A stretch of 64,000 nt of DNA, from assembly GCA_020846875.1 (NCBI GenBank), contig JADLDB010000179.1, positions 1-64,000 on the forward strand. The letters run 5' to 3'. The notes below the pieces were generated by a model that saw only the letters and a list, made by a program, of their open reading frames with translations, had not been told where the DNA came from and searched no databases. A program made the translations under genes and the position numbers. How positions within the stretch are numbered: position 1 is the first letter of the stretch; each line of letters starts with the position of its first letter. Of this stretch, positions 2,811 through 40,599 are shown in pieces. Origin of the DNA: Myxococcales bacterium. Lineage in GTDB: Bacteria > Myxococcota > Myxococcia > Myxococcales > Myxococcaceae.

Positions 2811-3631
2811 ACCCCTCGCAGCTCACGCTGAGCCGGCGCGCTCGTCCCCCGGTGGCGGCGGTCGCCGCGGTCCTCGGCATGGTGGCCGCCGCGGCCTGGT
2901 TCGTCGCGGTCCGCCAGGTGGTCCACGCCGCGGCCGTCGAGCAGCAGGAGGCCGCCGTGTACCGCGGCGCCGAGCTCATCTCCCTGCTCCGCCGCCTCGC
3001 CCAGGAGCGCGCCACCCAGCAGGCGCTGCTGCTCTCGGAGGACACGCGCCTCAAGGCGGCGCTGGCGGTGCCCGAGGTGGATCGCCTCACGCTCCTCGAC
3101 CTGCTCCAGGACATCCGCCGCCTCGACGAGAAGCAGGTGCTGGGGGTCCTCTCTCCCACCGGCCGGGTGCGCGCGGTGCTGGGCGCGCCGGCGCTGGAAG
3201 GCATGGACCTGGGCACGTCGGCGGCGGTGAAGAGCGCGCTCGCCTCGGCCGGCGTGGCCTCGGGTGCGTGGCTGCTGGACGAGCGGGTGCTGGAGGTGGG
3301 CGTGGCCGCGGTGCGGGTGGACGAGGTGCCGGTGGGCCTGGTGCTGACGGGCGCGCAGTTGTCCGACGACGAGCTGCACCTCGCGGCGCAGGGGGCCGGC
3401 GTACAGGTGGCCCTCGTCCTCGGCGGCCACCCGGCGTGGAGGAGCGCGCCCCTTCCCGACGAAGCGTGGGCTTCACCGCGGACCCGCCAGGTGGAGGTGA
3501 ACGAGTCTGCCCACTACCTGGTGGCCGCCTCCCCCCGCGCGCCGGAGCACCTGATGGTGTTCGCCTGGGCCGTCCCCATCGGAGTCCTGCTGTTCGCCAC
3601 CCTGGCCTTCTGGAGGGGAGGTGGCTGGTGA
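2807..3631 (+). CDS. Two-TM sensor-like membrane protein coupled to the kinase
   Basis: This is a 274-aa protein. A cytoplasmic N-terminus of about 14 residues is followed by a membrane helix (about 15-36), an extracytoplasmic domain of about 210 residues and a second helix (about 248-269), with almost nothing after it. The periplasmic part (helical RGAELISLLRRLAQERATQQALLL, then LGVLSPTGRVRAVLG and an Ala/Val-rich beta region) looks like the dCache-type sensing domains of receptor kinases and chemoreceptors. That is a fold-level inference. No output domain is present. Its start codon overlaps the kinase stop by 4 nt, so the simplest reading is a dedicated sensory partner of the upstream kinase. 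Confidence 0.75.
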   Translation: MNPSQLTLSRRARPPVAAVAAVLGMVAAAAWFVAVRQVVHAAAVEQQEAAVYRGAELISLLRRLAQERATQQALLLSEDTRLKAALAVPEVDRLTLLDLLQDIRRLDEKQVLGVLSPTGRVRAVLGAPALEGMDLGTSAAVKSALASAGVASGAWLLDERVLEVGVAAVRVDEVPVGLVLTGAQLSDDELHLAAQGAGVQVALVLGGHPAWRSAPLPDEAWASPRTRQVEVNESAHYLVAASPRAPEHLMVFAWAVPIGVLLFATLAFWRGGGW

Positions 3632-3757
3632 GTCACCCGTACGGCAGCTACGACGACTGACTGCCAGCCCGCCTCGCTCCTCGGATTCACGACGGCACCT
3701 CCACCGAGGCTGAGGAACAGATGTGACACCGCGATGGACGCGCGATAACAATCGCCC

Positions 3758-5722
3758 ATGCCTCCCGTGCCTCTCCCGTCGGTGGAAGACGCGCTCCTTC
3801 AGGCCAAAGACGCCATCAGTAAGGGTAGCCGCTGCATCGGCTTTTTCGGCCTGCCGGGGAGCGGCCGCACCACCGTCGCGCAGAAGGCCATTCAAGGCGA
3901 GTACTCGCTCTCTTTGAGGCTCTCAGTGCCGCGAGATGACGATGGCGCCGTGGCTGCCATCGTCTCGCTCGCCGCCCAGCTCCCCGAGGCGGCGAACTCG
4001 ATCGTCAAGAACACGAGCCGCACGTACCTCGAGCGCCTGGCCGACCTGATGGCGCTCGTTCCCAAAGAGGCAGCACTCTTCTTCGATGAGCCGCAGTTGT
4101 CTGGCGAGGACGGGTTCATCGAGACCATCTTCGCAGTGCGCGCGCGACAGTTCGCGAGCCACGTGCTCAAGCACGACTTCAAGCTCAAGGTCTTCACGGC
4201 AAGCCGCCCGGAGCCCACGCACGAGCTCCTCGGTGCCTATCTGGTTGAGGTGAAGCGTGAAGCCTCACCTCAGGTCGTCGCCCAGCTCGCCGGTCTCGAC
4301 GACCCACAGACGGCTGACTTCGTGAGCCGCAATGCCCGGGTGCTCTCGCAACGTTCGCCCATTGAGATTCGGCTTGCAGCGTGGCTCGCGAGCAGGGGCG
4401 TCGCAGATCCACACCTGCGGAATACGGACTTTCGCCTTCGAGACCTCATCAAGCTCGCAGCCCGACGGGTCAGCTCCGGCGCCAAGACGATGCTCGCAAG
4501 GTTGGCGCTGGTGCGTGACCCAACTGTCTCGGCGTGGCTCGACTGGGCGGCCAGCGGCGTGAAGCCCGACGATCGCTCGCTCGTCGAGCAGGTCTTCCTC
4601 TTCGGCGACGACGCGAGCTCGCTGAGGTTGCACGAGTCGATCGCGGAACTCTCGCGGGTGGAGAGGTGGTTGAGCCAACCGAAATCGGCCGAGGCGCATC
4701 GGGAGTTGGCCGACCAGTACAGGACGCGGTTCTCCTCCGGCCTGACTGCTCAGCGGCTAGGGGCGGCGCTGCAGGCCGAGATCGAGGTCGTGCACCACCG
4801 CACTATCGCTGGCGATGCTCAAGTCCTGAACGACACGCTCTACTTCGCAGAGCAGTACGACGCGCTGGGGCGGGCCTTCGGCCAACGGGGTGAGCGGCTG
4901 ATGAAGCGCGGCGCCGGGGGGGCGGTGAGCCATCTCAGGTCGGCCATCGCCTGCTACGAGCGCGCGCTCGAGAACGATCCAAGAGATTGGTACGCGGCGC
5001 ACTACCTCGCGTTCAACCACGACGTGCTTGGCGGAGACGTGGTGCAGATCGAGGAGCAGTACCGACGGGCGCTCAACCTCCGACCCACCTTCGTGTGGGG
5101 CCGCAGCCGGTGGATTCGGTTTCTGGTGACGTGTGGGCGGTACAACGAGGCGATGGCGGCCTTCGAGGCGGCGCTCGAGGTGTGCGCCTCGGACAACCCG
5201 CTCTTCTTCCGCGAGCTTCACCTCGACGTGGCCCGGCAGTTCCTTCAGGCAGGCGGGTACCGTCAGGCACAGCTGGTGCTCGAGCGCGTGCCCGAAGGTG
5301 TGCGCGCTCAACTCGACCGGTTCGAGCCGCTCTGCCGTTATGCCAAGTGGCAGGAGGAGCCGGACCTCAATCAGCTGGTGTTCCCGCCCTCGAGGCCGAT
5401 GTCGGCCCGCGACACTCCGGCGTTCCTTCAGCCCGGCGAGTCCTGCGAGACCTTCGTTCCCGCGCGTCTTGCTGCGATTGAAGGCAACATCTTCCGGTTC
5501 CGCGTGAAGCTCCCGACGGGCGAATACGGTTGGCGTGACGAGACGAAGGCACGACTGCGAGCGCTGGGGCTTGGGCCCTACATGCCCCTTCGGGTTGGCG
5601 CCTTCATTGAGTTCCTCAAGGTAAAGGGCGCCAAGGAGCGCGCTTCGATGCACCCGTTTGCCGATCCGTTCTGGGACCTCGAGGTGCGCTACCCGCCGCC
5701 TGATCGTTTCGCCGACGCGTGA
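3758..5722 (+). CDS. P-loop NTPase with C-terminal TPR region (candidate defence sensor)
   Basis: This is a 654-aa protein. The Walker A-like loop GLPGSGRTT is at residues 31-39 and a Walker B ALFFDE at 106-111, followed by TASRP, which could act as sensor 1. The layout fits the STAND/AAA+ group: NTPase core, helical middle (about 210-380), then TPR-like helices (about 390-480, e.g. AIACYERALENDPRDWYAA) and a C-terminal beta-rich domain of about 85 residues. The P-loop has Arg at position 37 where Lys is nearly invariant. Its stop overlaps the GTG of the next gene (GTGA), so the pair forms an operon. A sampled line of this gene is about 63% GC, against about 80% in the kinase gene, which suggests horizontal transfer. 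Function is unknown. A sensor NTPase controlling the adjacent hydrolase is inferred. Confidence 0.75.
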   Translation: MPPVPLPSVEDALLQAKDAISKGSRCIGFFGLPGSGRTTVAQKAIQGEYSLSLRLSVPRDDDGAVAAIVSLAAQLPEAANSIVKNTSRTYLERLADLMALVPKEAALFFDEPQLSGEDGFIETIFAVRARQFASHVLKHDFKLKVFTASRPEPTHELLGAYLVEVKREASPQVVAQLAGLDDPQTADFVSRNARVLSQRSPIEIRLAAWLASRGVADPHLRNTDFRLRDLIKLAARRVSSGAKTMLARLALVRDPTVSAWLDWAASGVKPDDRSLVEQVFLFGDDASSLRLHESIAELSRVERWLSQPKSAEAHRELADQYRTRFSSGLTAQRLGAALQAEIEVVHHRTIAGDAQVLNDTLYFAEQYDALGRAFGQRGERLMKRGAGGAVSHLRSAIACYERALENDPRDWYAAHYLAFNHDVLGGDVVQIEEQYRRALNLRPTFVWGRSRWIRFLVTCGRYNEAMAAFEAALEVCASDNPLFFRELHLDVARQFLQAGGYRQAQLVLERVPEGVRAQLDRFEPLCRYAKWQEEPDLNQLVFPPSRPMSARDTPAFLQPGESCETFVPARLAAIEGNIFRFRVKLPTGEYGWRDETKARLRALGLGPYMPLRVGAFIEFLKVKGAKERASMHPFADPFWDLEVRYPPPDRFADA

Positions 5723-6738
5723 AGCTCGAGGCAGGCAGGCTCAACCTGTGGGTCTTCGGACCTGGCATTGGCGAGTTCGTCGTCGTGCACGTTCCTCCGG
5801 ACGGGTGGCTGTCAATCGACGGCTGCTCGGCCGACGCGCAGGAGTGGCCGCTCAAGTTCTTTCGCGACCAGGTCGGGGTTGCGCCCACTCACATTCTGAT
5901 GACGCACCCGCACGCCGACCACGCCCGCGGCATTCGGGCGCTGGTCGAGCACTTCACACCCCATGGGCGCGTCACGTGGCCGCGCCTCGGAGTCGTCGCC
6001 CCGCCTCGACGGAAAGGCGACTCGGGCGCGAGCCAGGACGCCTTTGACAGCAGGCTGGCTAACGGAGTGCTGACCGCGGTGAAGACCCGTTGGCGACGTC
6101 AACCGGCCTCGAAGTGGACGCCTCGGGCTGGTCAGCGTGAGCCACTTGGGAGCGGAGAAGTGCTGACGCTTTCGCCGGCGAAGGAGGCGCTCAATCAGGC
6201 TGGTGAACAGAGCTTCGACTGGAATCGAGTGGCCACAGCGCTCGCGGTCGAGTGGTCGGGCCATCGGGTCGTGCTCGGCGCCGACCTCGTCGAGAAGCCG
6301 GGGAAGGGGTGGTCCGCGGTTCTCGGGCGTGCCCCCGTGGTGCGGAAGCACGTCATTCTGAAGGTGGCCCATCATGGCTCGCTCGAGGCTCAGCACGAGG
6401 CGCTGCTCAAGCGGCTCGCGGGTGAGGACGCGGTCACGCTCGTCACCACGCCATTCGCCAGCCAGGACCTTCCGCGCTTCGGGAGGTCGGACGGCGCCGA
6501 CCTGCTGTTGAAGCACAGCGACAAGCTGCTGCTCAGCGGACTTCCACAGGCCTTCGAAACGCAGAACCGAAGGCCTCGGCAGTGGCGGCGATCACGGCTG
6601 GCGCTCCAGAGGAAGCCCATCGCGCCAGATGAGCCGGTAGGCGACTTCCCTTCGAACTACGTCCACCTGGTGCTCTCGGCTGCCGGCAAGGTGAAGGCCA
6701 ACTACGGGCCGGGGAGCGTGATCGTACACCGTGGTTGA
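5719..6738 (+). CDS. ComEC-like metallo-beta-lactamase-fold hydrolase
   Basis: This is a 339-aa soluble protein starting at a GTG inside the stop of the upstream NTPase gene. It has the metal-binding signature THPHADH (62-68), a central GADL (about 187-190) and AHHGS (about 217-221). This combination is typical of the MBL domain of ComEC/Rec2 competence proteins and of related stand-alone hydrolases that act on nucleic acids or phosphoesters. No signal peptide or membrane helix is seen, so it should act in the cytoplasm. Like its partner it has lower GC than the flanks. Its tight coupling to an NTPase/TPR protein suggests it is the effector of a two-component defence or stress module. The substrate is unknown. 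Confidence 0.8.
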   Translation: MKLEAGRLNLWVFGPGIGEFVVVHVPPDGWLSIDGCSADAQEWPLKFFRDQVGVAPTHILMTHPHADHARGIRALVEHFTPHGRVTWPRLGVVAPPRRKGDSGASQDAFDSRLANGVLTAVKTRWRRQPASKWTPRAGQREPLGSGEVLTLSPAKEALNQAGEQSFDWNRVATALAVEWSGHRVVLGADLVEKPGKGWSAVLGRAPVVRKHVILKVAHHGSLEAQHEALLKRLAGEDAVTLVTTPFASQDLPRFGRSDGADLLLKHSDKLLLSGLPQAFETQNRRPRQWRRSRLALQRKPIAPDEPVGDFPSNYVHLVLSAAGKVKANYGPGSVIVHRG

Positions 6739-6855
6739 CGGCTCACTACCTGTTGGGCCGCTTGCGACGAAGCCGGCCGCGCCGCGCGCGCGATTGGCGT
6801 TCCCCCGGCGCGCTGCGCTATGTGAGAGGCCTCACTCGAGGAAGGGGAGCCTCTC

Positions 6856-8859
6856 ATGTCGTCGTCCATCCGCACCCTGGCGCGCAACGCCGCCGCCGAC
6901 CGCACCATCACCCGCGAGGAAGCGCAGTCCCTCGTCAACAAGGCGAAGGCCGACGGCAAGATCACCAGCTACGAGAAGTCCCAGCTGCGCGAGGCCCTCA
7001 CCCAGTACAAGGACCTCTTCGCCGCCGGCGCCGCCGACCTGGTGAAGCCGCTGCTCGAGCCGGCCCGCCCGCCCGCGCCCGGGCAGGTGGTGAACCTGGA
7101 CCCCACCCCCAGCCAGCGCCCGGTGTACCTCGCCGCCGACGGCAGCTTCACCGTCCACTCCAACGGCGCCGCGCCGCGCACCTCGCTGGAGAAGGGCGAC
7201 GCGCTGTACCGCGCCGGCGAGTTGGTGGACAACGCGAAGGAGAACCTCTTCGCCGGCCTGCCGAGGGAGCTGCGCCAGAAGGCCTTCGACAAGCTGGGGC
7301 CCACCCTGTCCACCTCCAACCCGTCCGGCTTCGACGACAAGCAGGCGCTGCAGGCCCGCGCCTCCTCCGGCACCGTGCTGCTGGCCCTGCTCGAGGCCTC
7401 GAAGGAGCCTGAGCTGGCCACCCCCATGCTCAAGGCCTACGAGGCGCTGGTGAAGGCCGAGCCCAACCAGCGGCTCAAAGAGAACCTCATCTTCCACCTC
7501 TCCAACTCTCCGGCCGCGCAGACCGGCGAAGCGAAGAAGACGGCCGACGCGCTGATGACGCAGCTGGCGCCGCTGACGCCCCCGTACGCCAGGTGGTTCG
7601 CCAACGGGAACAAGACGGTGAAGCTGGACTGGCAGGTGGGCGACGAATTCCTGTCCGGCTTCCGCAATAACCTCACCCGGTCCGGCTGGAAGGAGACCAG
7701 CGCGGGCAGCGGCGTGTACCAGAAGACCTTCAACGACCCCCAGCACGGCGAGACGAAGTTCGAAATCCGCACCCGCCTGGGCAGCTCCAACCTGCTGGAG
7801 AAGGTGGGCGACAAGTCCGTCCACATCATGGGCTACGACGGCCACTCCAACTGGGGGAAGAACCAGACCGGCAGCATCAAGCGCGCGCCTTCCCAGCCGG
7901 ACGGCGGCGACGGGCAGCTCTTCCTGTCCAACCTCTGCGTGGGCAAGTCGCAAGTCGACGCGATGAAGGAGAAGTTCCCCAACCTCCAGTTCACCACCAC
8001 CTACGGCAGCTCCTCGGTGGACACGGACATCGACGCGCTGGCGAAGTTCATCAGCCAGCGCAAGGGCTGGGACGAAATCACCCCCTACCTCGACCGCGTC
8101 GACGGCCACTGGGACAGGAACAACTTCGTCACCCCCACCAGCACCTTGACGCGCGAGAAGATGCTGGACCGGGACAACGACGGCCAGGCCGACTACCTGG
8201 ACAAGCACTTCAACGTGTCCACCTTCGCGGTGGCCGAGGACACCCGCCGCGAGTTCCGCCCGGTGAAGCAGGACCGGCCCAGCGAGCTGCTCGACGGCAC
8301 GAAGGTGGGCATCTCCGCGCAGGTGCTGAACACGGTGAGCGAGTTCAACGGCGTCTTGAAGGACGTCAACGAGCACTCCCGCGTCATCGCCGGCGGCTGG
8401 TTCGAGCCCAAGGCCGGCGAGGCGGACGTGGTGAAGTTCGAGAAGGTGAAGGGCAAGGACGGCCAGCCGGAGTACCGGATGACGGTGAACGCCCGCTACT
8501 CGCACATGTCCGAAGAGGCGATGCGCGCCACCTGCGTGTACGAGCTCAACCGCTTCCTCCAGTCGTCGGGCGAGCAGAAGCTGGACGCGGTGGACCGCAA
8601 GCTGCTGGCCGTCATCGGCTTCGCTCAGTCGCTGGACATCGACGACTCCTGGCGCGACGACGAGGTCTTCACGGAGTTCCTCGGCCGCTACAACCTGCCC
8701 GCCATCTCCCGCGACGACATTCAGCCGCTGCTGGACGCCGAGCACCACGACTACGCCGGCAGCCAGCAGATGGTGGACGCGCTCAAGGCGAAGCTGCCCG
8801 CCGGCGTGCTGGCCGAGCTGAAGAAGCCGGAAGTGGGCGAGCCGGTCCGCTTCCTGTAG
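6856..8859 (+). CDS. Large protein of unknown function with an EF-hand-like loop
   Basis: This is a 667-aa protein with a good ribosome site (GAAGGGGAG) 7-8 bases before the ATG. The N-terminal 50 residues (TITREEAQSLVNKAKADGKI) resemble a helical EF-hand-like pair found at the start of several myxobacterial proteins. A Pro-rich linker follows at about 65-95. Around residues 438-443 is DRDNDG, a calcium-loop-like DxDxDG motif. Between them, a region with HIMGYDGHSNWG, LFLSNLCVGK and TTYGSSSVDTD looks like a folded catalytic or binding core, but I cannot place it in a family. No classical signal peptide is seen. It stands alone between the NTPase/MBL pair and a minus-strand remnant. Confidence 0.75.
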   Translation: MSSSIRTLARNAAADRTITREEAQSLVNKAKADGKITSYEKSQLREALTQYKDLFAAGAADLVKPLLEPARPPAPGQVVNLDPTPSQRPVYLAADGSFTVHSNGAAPRTSLEKGDALYRAGELVDNAKENLFAGLPRELRQKAFDKLGPTLSTSNPSGFDDKQALQARASSGTVLLALLEASKEPELATPMLKAYEALVKAEPNQRLKENLIFHLSNSPAAQTGEAKKTADALMTQLAPLTPPYARWFANGNKTVKLDWQVGDEFLSGFRNNLTRSGWKETSAGSGVYQKTFNDPQHGETKFEIRTRLGSSNLLEKVGDKSVHIMGYDGHSNWGKNQTGSIKRAPSQPDGGDGQLFLSNLCVGKSQVDAMKEKFPNLQFTTTYGSSSVDTDIDALAKFISQRKGWDEITPYLDRVDGHWDRNNFVTPTSTLTREKMLDRDNDGQADYLDKHFNVSTFAVAEDTRREFRPVKQDRPSELLDGTKVGISAQVLNTVSEFNGVLKDVNEHSRVIAGGWFEPKAGEADVVKFEKVKGKDGQPEYRMTVNARYSHMSEEAMRATCVYELNRFLQSSGEQKLDAVDRKLLAVIGFAQSLDIDDSWRDDEVFTEFLGRYNLPAISRDDIQPLLDAEHHDYAGSQQMVDALKAKLPAGVLAELKKPEVGEPVRFL

Positions 8860-8875
8860 CCGGCCTGGAAGTCAG

Positions 8876-9222
8876 TCAGAACTCCCAGGTGTCGGCGGAG
8901 TCGCCGCTCGTCGTGTAGCCGCCGAAGAGCACCAGCTTCTGGCGGGCCGAGTCGTACGCCATCGCCGCCCAGCCCCAGGCCGTGGGGCTGGAGGACAGCG
9001 CCGTCCAGGTCCCCCCGCTGTACTGGTAGGAACCCGACTGCATGTTGGCGCCGTTGCTGCCACAGGCGACGATGAAGCGACCCAGCGCGACGTGAAACGC
9101 GCCCGCCATGGCGTACCGCGCGGGGAGGCCGGTCGCCGCGGTGTTCTGTGCCCAGGAGTGCCCACGCTGCGCTGGGCCCAGGTGGTGCCATTCCACTCCC
9201 AGGTGTCTTCAGAAGCGGACAC
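8876..9222 (-). pseudogene. Kelch-repeat protein remnant with a frameshift
   Basis: Reading the minus strand, SEDTWEWNGTTWAQRS appears in one frame. The next blade (GLPARYAMAGAFHVALGRF ... YSGGTWTAL ... AMAYDSARQKLVLFGGYTT ... DTWEF, then stop at 8876) is in another frame. D-TWEWNGTTW and MAYDSARxxLVLFGG are the hallmarks of kelch/galactose-oxidase-like beta-propeller blades common in myxobacterial surface proteins. Only about one and a half blades remain and no start region is visible. This is a decayed 3' fragment whose upstream part was replaced by the neighbouring beta-barrel gene, whose stop it overlaps. Confidence 0.6.
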
Positions 9223-11309: not shown

Positions 11310-13906
11310 GTTCGAGGTCCCCCAGAGCCTGTCTGAGACGAGGACTTTCTTCCAGTCCGGTCTCGGCGACGCAGCAGCACCAGCACCCCCAGCGCCAGCG
11401 CCTCGAGGCCACCGCCCGTGGCGCATCCCGTGGTGACGCCGCACTTCATCGGCGACGCGCTCTCGGTGTCGGGGTGGTCGGCGGTGGTGGGGGCCAGGTA
11501 CCTCGCCTGCGCCACGTGGCCCGCTTCGTCTTCCACGAAGACGGTGGCGCCGCCCGCCGCGTCCAGCGTGGCGAGGTCCAACACCTGCGTCGGCTCGAAG
11601 CGCACCTTCGGCCCGCTGCCCACCTGCACCTGCCAGCGCAGCTGCTCCTGCTTCGTCACCAGGTCCCGCGCCCACACGGAGAGCCGGCCCGCCGCGAAGT
11701 CGGGGCGCACCGCCAGCTTCGGCGGCTGGAAGTCCACCGTCACCTCCACCGCCTGCGGCGCCGACACGGCGTGCGGCTCGTCCACCGGCCGGGTGCGCAC
11801 CTCCACGCGGTGCAGGCCCTGCAGCAAGAGCGCCGGGTGCGTCACCCGCAGCTCACCCTGCGCGGGGCGGAAGGTGCTCCACAGCCCGTCGTCCACCCGG
11901 AAGGCCCACTCCACCGGCCCCGCAGCGTCCAGCGCCCGCACGTCCAGCACCGCGGTCGGCCAGGGCACCCCGTGGCCCGTCGCCACCAGCTTCTCCGCCG
12001 GCGGCACCTCGAGGCCCTTCAGCACCGCCCGCGCCTGCGGCCGATTCATCGGGCAGGCGCCCGCCTCCAGCTCGGCGAAGAGCGCCAGGTGCTCGAAGGA
12101 CGACGTCCCGGTGATGGGCGTCACCCCCGTCGCCTCGTTCACCTTGAGCCGGAAGGCGCCCAACGACGGCAGCGTCTGCGCGCCCAGCCCGTCGGCCAGC
12201 GCGGACTCCGCCAGCGTCAACAGGGATGGAATCAGGTCGGCCAGCACCTGTGGGTCCTCCGCCAGCACCTCGCTGTCCGCCGCGCGCACGTTGGTGAGCA
12301 ACTGCTTCACGTCGCCGATGGCCGGCGTCACCTGGTCGCAGTCCGAGAAGACGAGGGACAGGGGCAGGGCGACGTCGGTGGTGAGCGAGAAGAGGCGAAA
12401 GTAGCGCTCCTCCAGCATCGCGTAGACCTCGATGCGCAGGTCCGTCCATTCCAGGCGCACCAGCGGGTCGACCGGCAGCTTCGTCACCGGGTCGAAGGTG
12501 CCCTTGCCCACCGAGAGGCGCGGCGGCTCCTTCGGGCGCAGGGCGATGAGCATCGGCGCGTCCTTCCCGTCCACCGTGGCCAGCTTGCCCAGCGACGGCA
12601 GGAAGGCCTCGAACAGCCCGGTGGTGAGCACCCCCACCTGCGCGGTGGTGAGGTCGAGGCACATCACCCCCGCCTGGTGCGCGGCCCAGGTGGTGCGCTT
12701 CAAGAAGCGGGCGCTGACGGCGAGCCCCACGTGGTACCCCGCGTCGGTGGCGTTCCAATCCGGCGCGGGCGCCGCGAGGTCCACAGGCTCGGCCGCCGCC
12801 GGCACACAGGGCGCCGGGCCGCGCAGGACGAGGGTGCCGCCGTCCGGGACGGGGGCGGTGCCGGTGAAGGGCTCGGCGCCGCCCAGCACGCCCAGGGTGA
12901 GGTGGCTGTTCGCCGCCGAGGACACGCTGCCGCCGGCCACCGCGTACACGTCCAGCCCGCCCGACAGGGACAGCCCGGAGAGGTCTACCTGCGAGAGGTC
13001 CACCCGGCCTTCCATGCCCAGCGTGGTGGGCACGCAGCCCATCGAGTCGCGGCACTTGCCGGACTGGCAGGTGGAGGCGCCTGGGCAGGCGGAATCCCCC
13101 TGGCCTCCGCAGCTTCGGCAGCGCGCGTCGTCCACCGCCTCCGTCACCTGGTCGATGAGCGCCGGCTTGACGAACTGGTCCATCACGAAGTTCCGGATGA
13201 AGCCGATGTCCAGCACCGAGCAGGCCAGCGCGCTGCACAGCCCCGAGGTGTTGACGTCGAGGTCGCCGCCCTCCAACGAGTTGATGCCCCCTACCTGCGG
13301 CACGTCGAAGGCCAGCACGCGGCCGTAGCGCGCGTCGATGGTGAAGCGCACCTCGGCGGTGAGTTCGTCGTGCTGCCGGCCGCTGCGGGTGGACTGGAAG
13401 TTGGCCGAGCAGGTGAGGCGGCAGAGGCACGCCCCGAAGACCTCCGCGGCGCAGGTGCGCATCCACATGTCACCGGTGTTGATGCGCACTCGCACCGTGG
13501 CGTTCAGAATGCCCTGGTCGTTGGCGGTGGGGTTGGCCGGCGCCAGCGTCAACGAGAGGATGTCCACCGTGACGGTGCAGGCCTCGCCGGTGTCGCAGGC
13601 GTTGTTGCGGTTCTGGTCGCAGAGGTGGCCGTCGCTGCCGAAGCTGACCGCCGAGCACGGCACCGGAACCGACAGCGGCGTGGAGAGGCCGGCCTCCATC
13701 AACAGCTGCGCGTAGTTCGCGCTGATGAAGTCGAAGCCGCTCTGGGTGACGCGGGCGGACACTGCGTTGTCCAGCTTCTTCCCGTCGTAGCCGCCCGGAA
13801 TCGGCCGCAGGCACGAGCACCCGCCGCAGCCGCCGCTGCAGGCCATCCACGCGAAGGGGAGCAGCCACAGCCACGCACGGGGCGTGACGCGGTGTCGGTA
13901 CGTCAT
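11306..13906 (-). CDS. Large cell-surface lipoprotein with MYXO-CTERM-like tail
   Basis: This is an 866-aa protein. It has an N-terminal signal (WLWLLPFAWMAC) followed by a Cys/Gly cluster with a candidate lipidated cysteine at 23 or 27. The body is mostly beta-rich, with cysteine-rich patches around residues 110-125 (DQNRNNACDTGEACTV) and 255-290 (CRSCGG...CPGASTCQSGKC). Later segments look like Ig/bacterial surface repeats (VEVTVDFQPPKLAVRPD). The C-terminus (about 822-856) has paired cysteines, GGG, a short hydrophobic helix and RRR: CGVTTGCATGGG then LEALALGVLVLLRRR. This resembles the MYXO-CTERM sorting signal. No enzymatic motif was seen. A structural or surface role is inferred. It is followed by an overlapping response regulator gene. 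Confidence 0.75.
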   Translation of the reverse strand: MTYRHRVTPRAWLWLLPFAWMACSGGCGGCSCLRPIPGGYDGKKLDNAVSARVTQSGFDFISANYAQLLMEAGLSTPLSVPVPCSAVSFGSDGHLCDQNRNNACDTGEACTVTVDILSLTLAPANPTANDQGILNATVRVRINTGDMWMRTCAAEVFGACLCRLTCSANFQSTRSGRQHDELTAEVRFTIDARYGRVLAFDVPQVGGINSLEGGDLDVNTSGLCSALACSVLDIGFIRNFVMDQFVKPALIDQVTEAVDDARCRSCGGQGDSACPGASTCQSGKCRDSMGCVPTTLGMEGRVDLSQVDLSGLSLSGGLDVYAVAGGSVSSAANSHLTLGVLGGAEPFTGTAPVPDGGTLVLRGPAPCVPAAAEPVDLAAPAPDWNATDAGYHVGLAVSARFLKRTTWAAHQAGVMCLDLTTAQVGVLTTGLFEAFLPSLGKLATVDGKDAPMLIALRPKEPPRLSVGKGTFDPVTKLPVDPLVRLEWTDLRIEVYAMLEERYFRLFSLTTDVALPLSLVFSDCDQVTPAIGDVKQLLTNVRAADSEVLAEDPQVLADLIPSLLTLAESALADGLGAQTLPSLGAFRLKVNEATGVTPITGTSSFEHLALFAELEAGACPMNRPQARAVLKGLEVPPAEKLVATGHGVPWPTAVLDVRALDAAGPVEWAFRVDDGLWSTFRPAQGELRVTHPALLLQGLHRVEVRTRPVDEPHAVSAPQAVEVTVDFQPPKLAVRPDFAAGRLSVWARDLVTKQEQLRWQVQVGSGPKVRFEPTQVLDLATLDAAGGATVFVEDEAGHVAQARYLAPTTADHPDTESASPMKCGVTTGCATGGGLEALALGVLVLLRRRDRTGRKSSSQTGSGGPRT

Positions 13907-30888: not shown

Positions 30889-32445
30889 ATGAAGCGGTCG
30901 ATGCTTGGCGCAGTGCTGGTGGTGGTGGCGGGCTGCGGGGTGGGTGAAGGCTCGGTTTCGGACACGCCAGACACCCTGCAGGTGGGCACGCGGATTACCT
31001 GGGAGCAGTTCAAGGCGAACTACGCCTACCAGGAGCCGGAGACGGGCATCTGGATCGCCGACGGGGACACGCCCTTCACCAGCGAGAAGAAGCTGCGCGA
31101 GTTCTACGAGATGAACGTCGCGGACGGGCAGCTCGCCGTGGACCGCATCGGCAACACGGACAACAAGTGGAGCGCCTCGCAGAAGCTGAACCTCACCTAC
31201 TGCGTGTCCAACACCTTCGGCAGCCGCAAGGCGGAGATGGTGCAGGCGATGGCCCAGGCCACGGGCGCCTGGCAGGCGGTGGCCAACGTGAAGTTCGTCT
31301 ACCAGTCCGCGCAGGACGGCAGCTGCACCGCGTCCAACAACAACGTGCTGTTCGACGTGCGGCCGGTGAACGTCAACGGGCAGTACCTGGCCCGCGCCTT
31401 CTTCCCCGACGAGTCCCGCGCCAACCGCAACGTGCTGGTGGACAACTCGGCCTTCGGCGACTCGTCGGTGTCGCTGGTGGGCGTCCTCCGCCACGAGCTG
31501 GGCCACACCCTGGGCTTCCGCCACGAGCACACCCGCCCCGAGGCCGGCACCTGCTTCGAGGACAACAGCTGGCGCGCGCTGACGCCGTACGACTCGGCGT
31601 CGGTGATGCACTACCCGCAGTGCAACGGCACCGGCGACTTCGCGGACCTCACCCTCACCTCGCTCGACGGCCAGGGCGCTTCGGCGCTGTACGGCGCGCC
31701 CTCGGGCAGCGGCGGCGGTGGCGGCACCGGTGGCGGGACGGGTGGCGGCACCGGTGGCGGGACGGGCGGCGGCACCGGCGGCGGCACCGGCGGCGGGACG
31801 GGCGGTGGCAGCGCCGGCCCCAACGTGGAGAACTTCTCCGGCTCGGTGGCCCAGGGCGCGAGCAAGGCCTACGGCCCCTTCAGCGTGGCCGCGGGCACCA
31901 CCTTCCGTGCCGTCCTCAGCGGCTCCGGCGACGCGGACCTCTACGTGCGCTTCGGCGCCTCGCCCACCCTGTCCGCCTTCGACTGCCGGCCCTACCTCGA
32001 CGGCAGCGCCGAGGAGTGCAGCCTCACCGTGCCCGCGGGCCAGGCGGCCGCCTACGTCACCATCAACGGCTACGCCGCCTCCAGCTACTCGCTGCGCGTG
32101 GAGTACACCAAGGGCTCCTCCACCCCGCCGCCCACCGGGGGCACTCCGCAGACGGGCACCGCGTCCGGCAACGTCGGCAAGAATGAGCAGAAGCAGTTCC
32201 AGCCCATCACCGTGGTGCCCGGCACCAGCTTCACGGTGAAGATGACGGGCTCGGGTGACCCGGACCTCTACCTGCGCTTCGGCGCCGCACCCACGCTGAC
32301 CCTCTTCGACTGCCGGCCGTACAAGAACGGCGCGTCAGAGACCTGCTCCGTCACCGTGCCCGCCACGCAAGACAAGGTGTACCTGATGGTGCACGGCTAC
32401 GCGGCCGGCACCTACAACCTCACCATCAACTACACCGCCCCCTGA
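30889..32445 (+). CDS. Secreted metzincin metalloprotease with two PPC domains
   Basis: This is a 518-aa protein. The ATG at 30889 has GGAAGAGG upstream and gives a lipoprotein-type signal (VVVAGC, Cys16). The zinc motif HELGHTLGFRHEH begins at His202 (His202/206/212, Glu203), with the metzincin Met-turn SVMHYP (Met240). The extended GFRHEHTRPE is astacin-like. A (GGGT)n linker (about 274-308) leads to two pre-peptidase C-terminal (PPC) beta domains (about 313-395 and 425-518), each with DxDLYxRFG and FDCRPY. PPC domains usually aid secretion or binding and may be cleaved. A role in predation or nutrient digestion is inferred. Confidence 0.88.
   Translation: MKRSMLGAVLVVVAGCGVGEGSVSDTPDTLQVGTRITWEQFKANYAYQEPETGIWIADGDTPFTSEKKLREFYEMNVADGQLAVDRIGNTDNKWSASQKLNLTYCVSNTFGSRKAEMVQAMAQATGAWQAVANVKFVYQSAQDGSCTASNNNVLFDVRPVNVNGQYLARAFFPDESRANRNVLVDNSAFGDSSVSLVGVLRHELGHTLGFRHEHTRPEAGTCFEDNSWRALTPYDSASVMHYPQCNGTGDFADLTLTSLDGQGASALYGAPSGSGGGGGTGGGTGGGTGGGTGGGTGGGTGGGTGGGSAGPNVENFSGSVAQGASKAYGPFSVAAGTTFRAVLSGSGDADLYVRFGASPTLSAFDCRPYLDGSAEECSLTVPAGQAAAYVTINGYAASSYSLRVEYTKGSSTPPPTGGTPQTGTASGNVGKNEQKQFQPITVVPGTSFTVKMTGSGDPDLYLRFGAAPTLTLFDCRPYKNGASETCSVTVPATQDKVYLMVHGYAAGTYNLTINYTAP
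31711..31809 (+). repeat. 12-bp tandem repeat encoding (GGGT)n linker
   Basis: About eight in-frame copies of a GGTGGCGGGACG-like unit occur, with third-base variation. It forms a flexible Gly/Thr linker between the protease and its PPC domains. It is a likely site of length variation between strains. Confidence 0.85.
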
Positions 32446-35695: not shown

Positions 35696-36754
35696 ATGCG
35701 CGCGCCGCTGACCGACGCCGAGCTGGACTTTCGCCTCTCCGCGCTGGGGCTGGTGCGCGACCTCACCTTCGACTCGCCGCCGCCGTCCAAGAATCGCACC
35801 GTCGTCTGCAAGGCGGGCAAGAAGCGGGTGCTGGTGAAGATCGCCGACGGCCCGGGGAACGTGGGCGTGCTGCGCGAGGGCAGCGTGCTGGAGCGCGTGG
35901 GGCCCCTGTCGCAGTCCTCGAAGTCGCCGCTGCACCTGCCCCACGTCTTCGCCTTCGACCCCGCGCACGGGCTGCTGGCGCTGGAGTGGATCCACCACGG
36001 CGAGACGCTGCACCACTTCCACCGCCGCACCCAGGAGTACCCGGCGCCGCTGGCCCGGCAGGTGGGGCACGCGCTGGGCTACCTGCACCGGATGAGCCGC
36101 GAGGGCCGCAGCCGCTACGTCCTGGCAGACGCCTTCCGCGACGAGTCGGACCTGCTGGAGTGCTTCCTGCGCATGCGCCCAGACTTCTACGCGCGCCTGT
36201 CCAACGTGGGCATCGACTTCTTCGCCTCGGTGCAGGCGGACCACCCGGCCATCCTCGGGCTGCAGGCGCTGTCCGAGGCGCAGGCCAAAGACAGCCACGC
36301 GGCGCTGCTTCACGGCGACCTGCGCCAGGCGAACCTGCTGCGCGTGGCGAAGGGCAGCAAGGCGGCGGCGCACATCGTCTTCCTCGACTGGGAGCTGTCC
36401 TTCTGGGGCGACCCGGCGCGGGACTTCGGCAGCCTGCTGTCGGACTACGTGCTGGGCTGGCTGGCGCCGGAGCACAAGTCCGAGGTGCTGGGCCGCCCCA
36501 CGCTGGAGGCCTTCGCCCGCGCGATGCTGGAGGGCTACCAGTCGGGCCGCGAGGAAGGCTTCCACCTGGACGCCGCCTTCGAGGAGCGGGTGGTGCGCTG
36601 GGTGGGCGCGGCGCTGCTCATCTACGTGTACGGCATCTCCCACTACGAGCAGGTGCTGGACGCGCGGGCGCTGGCGATTTCCCGCCACGCGCTGGACATG
36701 CTGGGCCGGCCGGCCGACTGGCCGCACGTGCTGTGGGGCGAGGTGCAGCCGTGA
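35696..36754 (+). CDS. APH-fold kinase partnered with HopA1-like protein
   Basis: This is a 352-aa protein from the ATG at 35696 (a GTG at 35618 is possible). The kinase motifs are HGDLRQANLL (catalytic Asp208) and FLDWELSFWGDPARDFG (metal-binding Asp231), followed by SLLSDYVLGWL. The phrase DWExxxxGDPxxDxGSxxxxYxxxWL is what I recall for the APH-like kinases encoded next to HopA1-family genes, as in the split class V lanthipeptide synthetases (LxmK type). It overlaps the next start by GTGA, so the pair is translationally coupled. An aminoglycoside or choline kinase role is less likely given the partner. Confidence 0.75.
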   Translation: MRAPLTDAELDFRLSALGLVRDLTFDSPPPSKNRTVVCKAGKKRVLVKIADGPGNVGVLREGSVLERVGPLSQSSKSPLHLPHVFAFDPAHGLLALEWIHHGETLHHFHRRTQEYPAPLARQVGHALGYLHRMSREGRSRYVLADAFRDESDLLECFLRMRPDFYARLSNVGIDFFASVQADHPAILGLQALSEAQAKDSHAALLHGDLRQANLLRVAKGSKAAAHIVFLDWELSFWGDPARDFGSLLSDYVLGWLAPEHKSEVLGRPTLEAFARAMLEGYQSGREEGFHLDAAFEERVVRWVGAALLIYVYGISHYEQVLDARALAISRHALDMLGRPADWPHVLWGEVQP

Positions 36755-37479
36755 CGCCCGCCGTCGACCTCCGGGTGAAGTGGTTCCACGCCCGCCGCTT
36801 CTGCCTGAAGGAGACGGACGGGCCGGAGCAGCCGCGCGCCTCGGGTGACTCGGGCTTCGTGGCGCACCTCACCGCGTCCACTCACGGGGCCACCGGCTGG
36901 GACTGGAGCTTCCGCCTGGTGAAGCCGGGGCACGGCTGGGCCTTCGCCAGCGACGGGCGCCTGTCCTTGTTCCTCGACGAGCCCGGGCAGTACGTGCCGG
37001 ACGACGCGAAGGTGGGGGACCTGGTGGCGGTGCGGCTGCCGCGCGCGCGGGAAAACCTGCACCCGCACCGCTTCACCCTCTTCGGGGGGCAGGGCGGGCC
37101 GACGGTGGGCCACGGCTTCAAGAAGTACTTCCTGCCCATCGCCTGGGAAGGGGCGGCAGGGCTGGTGGAGACGTTCGCCGGCCGCGCGGGCGACGGCCTG
37201 CGCTTCGGGCTGTACGTGGCCAACGCGTCGACGGACTACGGGCGCGCGGACGCGGCCGTCCTCGACGTGGGCGGCTCCGACGAGGCGTCCGTGCTGAAGG
37301 TGGTGGAGTCCTTCGCCAACGCCAACCCCACGGCCTTGAGCCGGCGCGGGCTGCCCTACGGCACCCAGTCCGGACCCCTGGGCCTGCCCGTGGCCGAGGC
37401 CTTCAGCAAAGCGGACCTCTGCGACGGCTACGGGTGGCGGCGCAGCCGTGAGGCGGTGCAGGCCGGCGGCGCGGGCTGA
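36751..37479 (+). CDS. HopA1-family protein (LxmY-like lyase or cyclase candidate)
   Basis: This is a 242-aa protein starting at GTG within the stop of the kinase gene. The order of features fits my memory of the HopA1 family (PF17914): GRLSLFLDEPGQYV, a central GDLVAVRLPRA, an aromatic turn (HRFTLFGG), a strand-helix (KYFLPIAWEGAAGLVETFAG), then YGRADAAVLDV (from Tyr163), PTALSRRGLPYGTQSGPLGL and a final CDGYGWRRSREAV. Related proteins act as phosphothreonine/serine lyases or lanthipeptide cyclases beside an APH-type kinase. No precursor peptide or LxmX-like gene is apparent here. Family assignment is by motif only. Confidence 0.6.
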   Translation: MTPAVDLRVKWFHARRFCLKETDGPEQPRASGDSGFVAHLTASTHGATGWDWSFRLVKPGHGWAFASDGRLSLFLDEPGQYVPDDAKVGDLVAVRLPRARENLHPHRFTLFGGQGGPTVGHGFKKYFLPIAWEGAAGLVETFAGRAGDGLRFGLYVANASTDYGRADAAVLDVGGSDEASVLKVVESFANANPTALSRRGLPYGTQSGPLGLPVAEAFSKADLCDGYGWRRSREAVQAGGAG

Positions 37480-37573: not shown

Positions 37574-38110
37574 GTGACGCTGCGCCCCTTCGGAGCCATC
37601 TCGCGCCGTGGAGTGCTGAAGCTCGCGCTGGGCGCGGGCGGCGTCGTCCTCGGCGGCGCCGGCGGCGTGTTGGCGCTCCGGGGCTCCGCGCCGCCGGTGG
37701 AGGGCCTCGCCGTCCTCTCGGCGCACGAGTACCGCACGATGGCCGCGCTGGCGGCCGCCGCCTTCCCCGACGGCACCCTGCCCCAAGGAAGCCCCTCGCT
37801 GGACCTGGCGCGCGCCTTCGACACCTACCTGGCGGACGAGCCTGAGTGGGCGCAGGAGGAGGCGAAGCAGGCGTTGCTGCTGCTCGAGCTCGGGCCGCTC
37901 GTCTTCGAGCGCCGCCTCGTCACCTTCAGCCACCTCTCACCGGCCGAGCGCATCGCGCACTTCGAGGCCTGGGCGAGGTCCGGCTCGGAGCTGCGCCGCC
38001 AGGTGGCGACGGGCTTCCGGAAGTTCCTCTGCCTGCTCTTCTACGATCAACCCGCGGCGTGGACGCTCCTGGGCTACCCGGGCCCGATGATCAGCGGGGG
38101 CGCGCCGTGA
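37574..38110 (+). CDS. Tat-exported small subunit of a GMC-type dehydrogenase
   Basis: This is a 178-aa protein with a GTG start. The twin-arginine signal SRRGVLK (10-16) is followed by a Gly/Ala hydrophobic stretch. The mature part (AAFPDGTL...DTYLADEPEWAQEEAKQALLLLE, FRKFLCLLFYDQPAAWTLLGYPGP) fits the gluconate 2-dehydrogenase subunit 3 family. Such subunits carry the Tat signal for the complex, so the FAD subunit can be carried across with it. Its stop overlaps the next gene by GTGA. Confidence 0.8.
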   Translation: MTLRPFGAISRRGVLKLALGAGGVVLGGAGGVLALRGSAPPVEGLAVLSAHEYRTMAALAAAAFPDGTLPQGSPSLDLARAFDTYLADEPEWAQEEAKQALLLLELGPLVFERRLVTFSHLSPAERIAHFEAWARSGSELRRQVATGFRKFLCLLFYDQPAAWTLLGYPGPMISGGAP

Positions 38111-39633
38111 GCGGCTCCATCGTCTCCTGCGCGGAGGTGGCCCCCCCCACCGAGCTGACGGTGGACTGCGCCGTCATCGGCTCCGGCTGCGGCGGCGCGA
38201 CGGCGGCGTGGGAGCTGGCGAAGGCGGGCCGCGAGGTGCTGGTGCTGGAGGAGGGCGGCGACTTCACCGGGCCGAAGCTGACCGGCCGCGACGGCGCCAT
38301 GTACGACCAGCTCTACATGGACCGCGGCGGACGCGCGACGACGGACCTCTCCATCTCCGTGCTGCAGGGCCGCGTGCTGGGCGGCGGCGGCGTCATCAAC
38401 GCGTGCGACGTGGTGCCCATCTCCGACGCGGTGGCGCGCCACTGGCAGCAGAAGCACGGCCTCACCGACTTCGGGCCCGGGCAGCTCGCCCCGTTCCGCG
38501 CGCGGGCGCTCGAGGACCTCTCGGCCAACACGCCCGACGAGGCGCAGCTCAACCGGAACAACCGGCTCCTCCGGCAGGGCGCGCAGGCGCTGGGCTGGAA
38601 GGGCGAGGTCATGCAGCACAACCGCGTGGGCTGCGTGGGCGCCGCCACCTGCCTCATCGGCTGCGGCTTCGACGCCAAGCGGAACCCGCGCTTCGTGGCC
38701 ATCCCCGGGGCGCTGGCGGCGGGCGCGCGCTTCTTCACCCGGGCGCGGGTGACGCGCATCGACGGCGCCGGGCAACAGCTCAAGCGCCTCACCGTTCGGC
38801 GGCTCGACGCGAAGGGCTACCACGAGGGCGACGCCTTCACCGTCAAGGCGCGCACCGTCATCCTCGCCGCCAACGCGATCGCCTCGGCCCAGTTGCTGCT
38901 CCGCTCCGGCGTGGGCAACGAGCACGTGGGTCGGCACCTCTCGCTGCAGCCGCAACTGCCCGTCACCGTCCGCTTCGACGATGAGGTGCGCTTCTTCCGC
39001 GGCATCCCCCAGGCGTACGCGGTGACGGAGTTCGAGCAGCACGAGCACCCGAAGCACGGCTGGTGGGGCTTCCGCATCGAGGCCATCTCCGGCACGCCGG
39101 GCGTCGTCGGCTCGCTGCTGCCTGAGCTGGGCGCGCCCGGGCTGGCGCGCATGCGCGACTACGGGAAGCTGGCGGCGGCGCTGCTGCTGCTCCCCGACGC
39201 ACCGCAGGGGCGGGTGCGGGTGGAGGCCGGCGGGCGCCTGCGCCTCGACTACGCGCTGGACGAAGAGCAGAAGGGGCGCTTCCGCGACGCGGTGAGGGCC
39301 GCGGCCCGCGCCTACTTCGCGGCCGGCGCGAAGGAGGTGTACGTGCCGACAGTGCCGCCCTTGCGGCTGGCCTCCGAGGCGGAGCTTCCCAAAGTGGATG
39401 CGCTCACCTTCGCGCCCGCCACCGCGCCATTCCTCTCGGCGCACCAGCAGGGCACGGTGCGCTTCTCGCCCAACGAGAAGGACGGCGGCGCCGCGCCCGA
39501 CGGCCGGGTGTACGGCACGAACGGCGTGTACGTCTTCGACTCCAGCGGCTTCCCGTCCAGCGCGTCGAGCCACACCATGGCGCCCATCATCACCGTCTCG
39601 CGCATGCTGACCCAGCGGCTGCTCGCCGGCTGA
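38107..39633 (+). CDS. GMC-family FAD oxidoreductase (dehydrogenase large subunit)
   Basis: This is a 508-aa protein. The Rossmann FAD motif GSGCGG (25-30) is followed by E at the end of the second strand (LVLEEGGDF), GRVLGGGGVINACD, and the C-terminal GMC active-site region with HQQGTVRF...DSSGFPSSASSHTMAPIITVSRM, where the His pair is expected. It has no signal peptide of its own. It probably leaves the cell with the Tat-signal partner just upstream. A third cytochrome c subunit, usual in gluconate and alcohol dehydrogenases, is not next to it. The substrate is unknown (an alcohol, sugar or sterol). Confidence 0.85.
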   Translation: MSGSIVSCAEVAPPTELTVDCAVIGSGCGGATAAWELAKAGREVLVLEEGGDFTGPKLTGRDGAMYDQLYMDRGGRATTDLSISVLQGRVLGGGGVINACDVVPISDAVARHWQQKHGLTDFGPGQLAPFRARALEDLSANTPDEAQLNRNNRLLRQGAQALGWKGEVMQHNRVGCVGAATCLIGCGFDAKRNPRFVAIPGALAAGARFFTRARVTRIDGAGQQLKRLTVRRLDAKGYHEGDAFTVKARTVILAANAIASAQLLLRSGVGNEHVGRHLSLQPQLPVTVRFDDEVRFFRGIPQAYAVTEFEQHEHPKHGWWGFRIEAISGTPGVVGSLLPELGAPGLARMRDYGKLAAALLLLPDAPQGRVRVEAGGRLRLDYALDEEQKGRFRDAVRAAARAYFAAGAKEVYVPTVPPLRLASEAELPKVDALTFAPATAPFLSAHQQGTVRFSPNEKDGGAAPDGRVYGTNGVYVFDSSGFPSSASSHTMAPIITVSRMLTQRLLAG

Positions 39634-39906: not shown

Positions 39907-40599
39907 ATGACCTCCCTCCTCCTCCCCGCGCTGGTGGGCCTCGCGCTCGGCGTGCGCCATGCCTTCGAGCCCGACCACCTCGCGGCCGTGTCCACGCTGG
40001 CCACGGAGCAGAAGAGCGCCCGCGCCGGGTTGCTGCTGGGCGCCTGGTGGGGCCTGGGGCACACCGCGGCGCTGCTGCTGGTGGGCGGCTCGCTGGCGCT
40101 CCTCGAGGCGCAGATGCCGGACCGGGCAGCCCTCACCCTCGAAGCCCTGGTGGGCGTGATGGTGGTGGCGCTGGGGCTGCGCGCGCTGAAGCGGGCCTTC
40201 GAGGAAGGCCGGACGGGCGCCGTCACCTCGCACCAGCACGCGGGCGTCCCGCACACCCACGCCGCGACGGGCGACCACCTGCACCTGCGCGGCTGGACGC
40301 TGGCGACGCGCCCCCTCCTCATCGGCCTCGTCCATGGGCTGGCCGGCAGCGGCGCGTTGACGGCGCTGGTGCTGGCGGAGCAGCCGTCGGCGGCCGCGCG
40401 CCTCTCGTACATCGCCCTCTTCGGGCTGGGCAGCGTGGCCGGCATGGCGCTCCTCACCGGGCTGGCCGGCGTCCCGCTGATGCGGGTGGCGCGGGCGCCC
40501 AGGGCCGCGGCGGCGCTGCTGGGCGTGGCGGGCGCGCTGTCCGTGGGCGTGGGGGCCTTCTGGGCCTTCGCGTCCGCGCGCGAGCTGGCTGGCCTCTGA
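39907..40599 (+). CDS. NiCoT/UreH-like nickel-cobalt transporter
   Basis: This is a 230-aa membrane protein with about six helices. The N-terminal helix carries RHAFEPDHLAAV (17-28), the RHA-x4-DH signature of HoxN/NixA/UreH-type transporters. A cytoplasmic loop is His-rich (SHQHAGVPHTHAATGDHLHL), as in metal-loading loops. It is shorter than classical NiCoT proteins, closer to the UreH group. Metal specificity (Ni or Co) is not visible. It is alone between the dehydrogenase pair and the patatin gene. The 273 bp before it hold no gene I can support. Confidence 0.75.
   Translation: MTSLLLPALVGLALGVRHAFEPDHLAAVSTLATEQKSARAGLLLGAWWGLGHTAALLLVGGSLALLEAQMPDRAALTLEALVGVMVVALGLRALKRAFEEGRTGAVTSHQHAGVPHTHAATGDHLHLRGWTLATRPLLIGLVHGLAGSGALTALVLAEQPSAAARLSYIALFGLGSVAGMALLTGLAGVPLMRVARAPRAAAALLGVAGALSVGVGAFWAFASARELAGL

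Follow-up and report, generated by a model that had tools for sequence, protein, structure and literature searches.

A coupled kinase and HopA1-like gene pair

The stretch analysed here (the window) comprises 64,000 nt of contig JADLDB010000179.1 of a Myxococcales bacterium of the family Myxococcaceae (assembly GCA_020846875.1). At nt 35696–37479 it carries two coupled genes, here called K and Y, which a sequence-only reading had described as an APH kinase and a HopA1-like partner resembling a split class V lanthipeptide synthetase. Both genes are real and correctly placed, and the homology of the pair to class V LanK/LanY is confirmed by sequence, fold and gene order; in Y the catalytic lysine and tyrosine of the lyase are replaced. 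The features of the pair are as follows.

35696..36754, + strand: K, LanK/LxmK-type kinase of APH fold, 352 aa, ATG start (sequence, profile and model matches)
36152..36235, + strand: K residues 153–180 (beginning LLECFLRMRPDFYARLSNVGIDFF), helical and near-invariant, predicted counterpart of the lyase-docking helices of LxmK and CaoK (conservation; PMC9486802, PMC12141560)
36311..36334, + strand: HGDLRQAN catalytic loop, K residues 206–213 (sequence motif)
36751..36754, + strand: GTGA overlap, with the GTG start of Y on the stop codon of K; translational coupling (sequence, relatives)
36751..37479, + strand: Y, pseudo-lyase of HopA1/LanY fold, 242 aa, with other residues in place of the catalytic Lys and Tyr (profiles, model, alignment)
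36892..37014, + strand: Y residues 48–88, conserved and beta-rich, predicted kinase-docking sub-domain corresponding to CaoY P102–L141 and LxmY 104–160 (strands 48–59, 64–67 and 72–75; conservation)

The overlap of the two genes is present in the relatives too, mostly as ATGA instead of GTGA, and the N-terminus of K is supported by the same MRAPLT or VRAPLT start in these sequences. Every pseudo-lyase gene found adjoins its kinase gene. A frameshift or pseudogene was rejected, as neither frame is broken in any of 19 orthologues and the ratios of non-synonymous to synonymous substitution rates (dN/dS) are well below 1 (K, 0.09–0.28; Y, 0.12–0.46), values which show that K and Y are maintained genes and that Y is under purifying selection. 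Of the two, K is the better conserved, with 67–81% identity among relatives, compared with 43–66% for Y. A viral origin was also rejected, since the structure search gave no viral match.

K matches the Pfam family APH (PF01636) with 38.5 bits, and its best NCBIfam match is LxmK (NF038156; 75 bits, E 5e-21), a score below the equivalog cut-off of 315; the next NCBIfam family follows at E 4e-4. LxmK is likewise the top NCBIfam match for all 16 kinases aligned. The structural model of K (mean predicted local distance difference test score, pLDDT, 81) has LxmK (9dk3_A, E 1e-12) as its best PDB match, followed by methylthioribose kinases and choline kinases. By sequence and by fold, LxmK thus ranks above every aminoglycoside/choline or metabolite kinase family, and K groups with it and not with the ordinary aminoglycoside/choline kinases. 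In addition to the HGDLRQAN loop, K carries FLDWE...GDPARD, so that both kinase motifs named in the sequence-only reading are present, and the catalytic residues K48, E61, H206, D208, N213 and D231 are intact in K and kept in all 19 kinases of the window type (the window sequence and its 18 orthologues). The near-invariant segment 153–180 is a candidate for the surface that docks the lyase subunit.

The HopA1-like character of Y, and its coupling to the kinase, were also correctly recognised from the sequence. The match of Y to HopA1 and LxmY is well above chance: although its Pfam score (PF17914, 24.5 bits) only just exceeds the cut-off of 22.7, the doubt this raises is removed by the profile and fold searches, both of which find LxmY. 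A 23-row profile built on Y recovers chain 9dk1_B, which is LxmY, at E 6e-13, and the AlphaFold model of Y (pLDDT 92.8) has LxmY as its best PDB match (E 4e-9), ahead of the HopA1 effectors (4rsx, 4rsw) and OspF. Comparison with LxmK/LxmY, which had been proposed as a check, therefore returns the LxmKY crystal structure first for both subunits. Residues 48–88 of Y have a conservation of 0.77–0.83 and may form the kinase-docking sub-domain.

Replacement of the lyase residues in Y

In CaoY, K219 is the general base and Y236 the catalytic tyrosine, both being common to OspF and the LanKC/LanL lyases; elimination is lost in K219A, almost lost in R187A and weakened in R229Q, while CaoK combined with CaoY K219A in vitro gives phosphorylation without elimination (PMC9486802). 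Residues were mapped using CaoY and LxmY as anchors (LxmY equivalents 189/221/231/238 in PDB chain numbering), across 34 Y-type sequences, of which 19 are of the window type and 15 are others, LxmY and the second pair of this genome (see below) among them. The CaoY residues R187, K219, R229 and Y236 correspond to K125, Y155, R165 and D172 of Y.

37069..37071, + strand: R107, Arg in 19/19 at the active-site guard position, which is Phe/Tyr in 15/15 others (LxmY F169) (alignment)
37123..37125, + strand: K125, position of CaoY R187, still basic (alignment)
37213..37215, + strand: Y155, aligned with CaoY K219, the essential lyase Lys; Lys in 0/19 (alignment; PMC9486802)
37243..37245, + strand: R165, aligned with CaoY R229, which contacts phosphate; retained (alignment)
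37264..37266, + strand: D172, position of the catalytic Tyr (CaoY Y236), Asp in 19/19 (alignment)

The lysine and the tyrosine are both kept in all 15 sequences outside the window clade. Within it, position 155 is occupied by H (7), Y (6), A (2), C, S, F or M, seven residue types in a conserved strand whose residues 152, 156 and 158 are invariant. R98, R107, D172 and D225-G226 have become fixed jointly within or close to the former active site, and R107 takes the place of LxmY F169, which is said to guard the active site. Misalignment of the catalytic lysine was rejected, because the spacing of R187/K219/R229/Y236 (+32, +42, +49) is exact in LxmY and the intact relatives align unambiguously. 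Of the two blocks quoted from Y as HopA1-like (GDLVAVRLP and YGRADAAVLDV), the family assignment stands, but the second is the very site where the catalytic tyrosine has become aspartate. The proposal that the pair phosphorylates and then eliminates to make lanthionine accordingly fails at the lyase step, as neither the window protein nor any of its 18 orthologues has an equivalent of K219 or Y236.

The 19 window-type sequences form a single clade in both trees (support 100/100 for Y and 97/97 for K), and the nearest relatives of this clade are pairs in which the lyase residues are kept (L072, L073, G155); for this reason, the loss of both residues looks like one event. Almost all of the 19 orthologues are from Myxococcaceae. 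In a scan of named genomes the relatives of the kinase were all from metagenome assemblies labelled Myxococcales, Myxococcaceae or Archangium, except for one labelled Actinomycetota, and a search of the family, which covered 96 genomes, found the window-type pair in about one in five of them, the largest genera giving no match throughout. The exception is a groundwater assembly (L093) with a window-type pair whose kinase is 78% identical; it may represent a mis-binned contig or a horizontal transfer. No pseudo-lyase LanY or class V system of myxobacteria was found in openly available papers.

Neighbouring genes and the second pair of the genome

No LanC-like cyclase gene is present in the genome, which is rated 100% complete, and no LanX-like or LanD-like gene was seen at the locus (LanD was not searched genome-wide). 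As the sequence-only reading had noted for the surroundings of the pair, no precursor or LxmX-like gene was found, and neither a precursor nor a LanX or LanD gene occurs at any of the 18 loci viewed. Close to the pair, the window and the 17 orthologous loci have no short or repeat-containing ORF in common, the remainder of the genome not having been searched for novel precursors; no tandem repeat near the pair encodes a Ser/Thr repeat peptide substrate, and no third gene besides K and Y is common to all window-type loci. One Gly/Thr-coding tandem repeat was seen in the window at nt 31705–31818 (36-base unit, 3.2 copies), within a matrixin-like peptidase gene. The genes downstream of the pair are listed below.

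37574..38110, + strand: small secreted-type protein with a TAT-like (twin-arginine) start, preceding the GMC oxidoreductase gene; a relative with 59% identity lies beside the L073 pair
38107..39633, + strand: GMC oxidoreductase, a neighbouring gene
39907..40599, + strand: NicO-family transporter

The small secreted-type protein and GMC oxidoreductase genes (nt 37574–39633) also occur together beside the L073 pair (from nt 11781), which keeps its lyase residues, and weaker relatives are found near L075. A gene for a NicO-family transporter follows the pair immediately in L060, L068, L070 and L071 and lies close by in L069 and the window, a recurrence that spans deep branches of the window clade. 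In three genera the pair is preceded by genes for a tetratricopeptide repeat (TPR) protein (c5), a Cys-rich lipoprotein-like protein (c4) and a Pkinase protein (c6) with a conserved tail (FLE..ELKRP), found at L061 (nt 3430–8462), L055, L063, L069 and L070. These were dropped as substrate, as in this genome c4 and c6 lie elsewhere, on contig C139 (G000, L153, nt 4446–9159), and the Ser/Thr residues of the c6 tail are not conserved.

The genome contains two LxmK-like genes and, beyond these, a single weak match. The second belongs to a kinase–HopA1 pair on contig C118, in which the lyase Lys and Tyr are kept, and 36 bp upstream of its kinase gene is encoded a Cys-free peptide of 188 aa with 12 PLKS motifs. 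Repeat peptides of this and two other types accompany pairs with intact residues.

L003 14057–14623 (contig C118), also L075–L080: PLKS-repeat peptide (MPRI..KPLTSANP..PLKS, 6–12 copies), without Pfam match
L074 12–335, + strand: RPEMRPPTSIRP-type Cys-free repeat peptide, upstream of an intact-residue pair
L152 10166–10447, - strand: PTPTATRPVK-type Cys-free repeat peptide, upstream of an intact-residue pair in a genome of another family

Seven genomes have a C118-type pair with complete flanks, and it is in these seven that a member of the PLKS peptide family is encoded ahead of the kinase; an eighth contig is truncated. Genomes whose only pair is of the window type lack the peptide, and a role as substrate of the window pair is therefore not supported; one weak, unrelated match (E 3e-4) was seen elsewhere. 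The L074 and L152 peptides are mutually unrelated but occupy the same position, and their pairs are more distant. The Cys-free repeat peptides are probably the dehydration substrates of these intact myxobacterial LanKY pairs. Lanthionine could not be formed from them, as they contain no cysteine; the products could be free dehydroamino acids or adducts with lysine. The comparison has thus exposed what is likely a new kind of LanKY substrate, namely Cys-free Pro/Ser/Lys repeat peptides.

Interpretation and comparison with known systems

The window pair is probably a kinase/pseudo-lyase module derived from a class V LanK–LanY dehydratase. K would carry out ATP-dependent phosphorylation of Ser/Thr on a peptide or protein substrate, and Y, with its LanY fold kept, would dock K as in LxmKY to form a heterodimer, stabilise it, and hold or read the substrate, but could not catalyse beta-elimination by way of a lysine and a tyrosine. 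The reaction would thus end with a stable phosphoryl group on Ser/Thr, and neither dehydroalanine nor lanthionine would be formed. That the product would be left phosphorylated is suggested by the conservation of the predicted docking parts while the elimination chemistry has been lost, and the retention of a catalytically dead Y would be understandable because LanK needs LanY for solubility and stability: LanK alone is poorly soluble, and the two form a tight heterodimer (PMC9486802, PMC12141560). To account for the missing precursor, the sequence-only reading offered either a substrate encoded elsewhere or modification of a protein target; the protein target is the better half of that suggestion, and a lanthionine-synthetase function is not supported. 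Several points weigh against a module of this kind. A new active site might be made up of the invariant D172, R107 and K125, so that Y may still be an enzyme; the fold of K would also suit a small-molecule kinase, 5-methylthioribose kinase being the next PDB match; and the loci viewed revealed no substrate gene.

The last two of these points would fit a kinase acting on a metabolite, in the manner of the APH, methylthioribose and choline kinases, with Y as a ligand-binding or regulatory subunit, and the NicO transporter as recurrent neighbour is in keeping with such a role. We regard this as unlikely, as the peptide kinase LxmK is the best match to K by a wide margin in NCBIfam and by fold, and the nearest relatives with an intact lyase appear to act on peptides. 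Less likely again is a working split class V dehydratase, in which Y would eliminate by a changed mechanism, using Asp172 or a base supplied by K, on a precursor encoded elsewhere. The LanKY ancestry, the two basic pocket residues that are kept (K125, R165) and the invariance of D172 and R107, which shows the pocket to be still under selection, would suit it, but the severity of the CaoY K219A and R187A mutations (PMC9486802), the variety of residues at position 155, which leaves no replacement base there, and the lack of LanC in the genome and of precursor, LanX and LanD at the loci viewed all argue against it. That the R107/D172/K125 pocket catalyses some other reaction on the phosphorylated product is very improbable, for although residues in or near the old active site were fixed together and the LanX cyclases provide a precedent for a repurposed (kinase) fold (PMC12291118), neither a cofactor motif nor a partner gene suggests a reaction, and the same observations are explained by a binding site having become fixed.

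The kinase/pseudo-lyase reading can be taken further, if only tentatively. A dehydratase may have been turned into a dedicated protein kinase holoenzyme, in which loss of the Lys/Tyr pair and gain of the new Arg and Asp made LanY a phospho-Ser/Thr-binding or positioning subunit; LanKY would then serve as a scaffold for regulatory or structural phosphorylation in one myxobacterial family, while sister pairs with intact residues in that family dehydrate Cys-free repeat peptides. If Y is indeed a pseudo-lyase, the clade would represent a natural, single-event switch from dehydroamino acid formation to leaving the phosphate in place, and a testable case of an enzyme of ribosomally synthesised and post-translationally modified peptide (RiPP) biosynthesis recruited as a kinase subunit. 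Without a check for the Lys/Tyr pair, the window clade would be a systematic false positive.

Among known systems, the HopA1 type III effectors of Pseudomonas syringae (PF17914; 4RSW, 4RSX) have a fold in common with Y (E 2e-4) at only 15–16% identity. Unlike these, Y is always paired with a kinase, and no secretion context was seen (a secretion signal was not sought). The thioamitide proteins TsaC/TsaD and TvaC/TvaD likewise form an APH/HopA1 pair, and 96% of surveyed HopA1-like genes adjoin such a kinase (PMC8153245); the thioamitide pairs act on thioamitide precursors within YcaO/TfuA clusters, whereas nothing similar occurs at the window. The C118 pair belongs to the same two families and has the same gene order as the window pair, which is about 29% identical to it in Y and 33% in K, but it differs in its intact lyase residues and its upstream repeat peptide.

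LxmK/LxmY of the lexapeptide pathway of Streptomyces rochei (PDB 9DK1–9DK3) resembles the window pair in both folds, in the kinase motifs and in having the partners encoded by separate genes. In the window Y, Tyr155, Asp172 and Arg107 stand in for the Lys, the Tyr and the guard Phe of LxmY, and the locus has no LxmA, LxmX or LxmD gene. CaoK/CaoY of cacaoidin (PMC9486802) is likewise a kinase with a HopA1-like partner, and the positions of R187 and R229 are basic in both; Y lacks the equivalents of K219 and Y236, and its predicted natural state resembles that of the CaoY K219A mutant.
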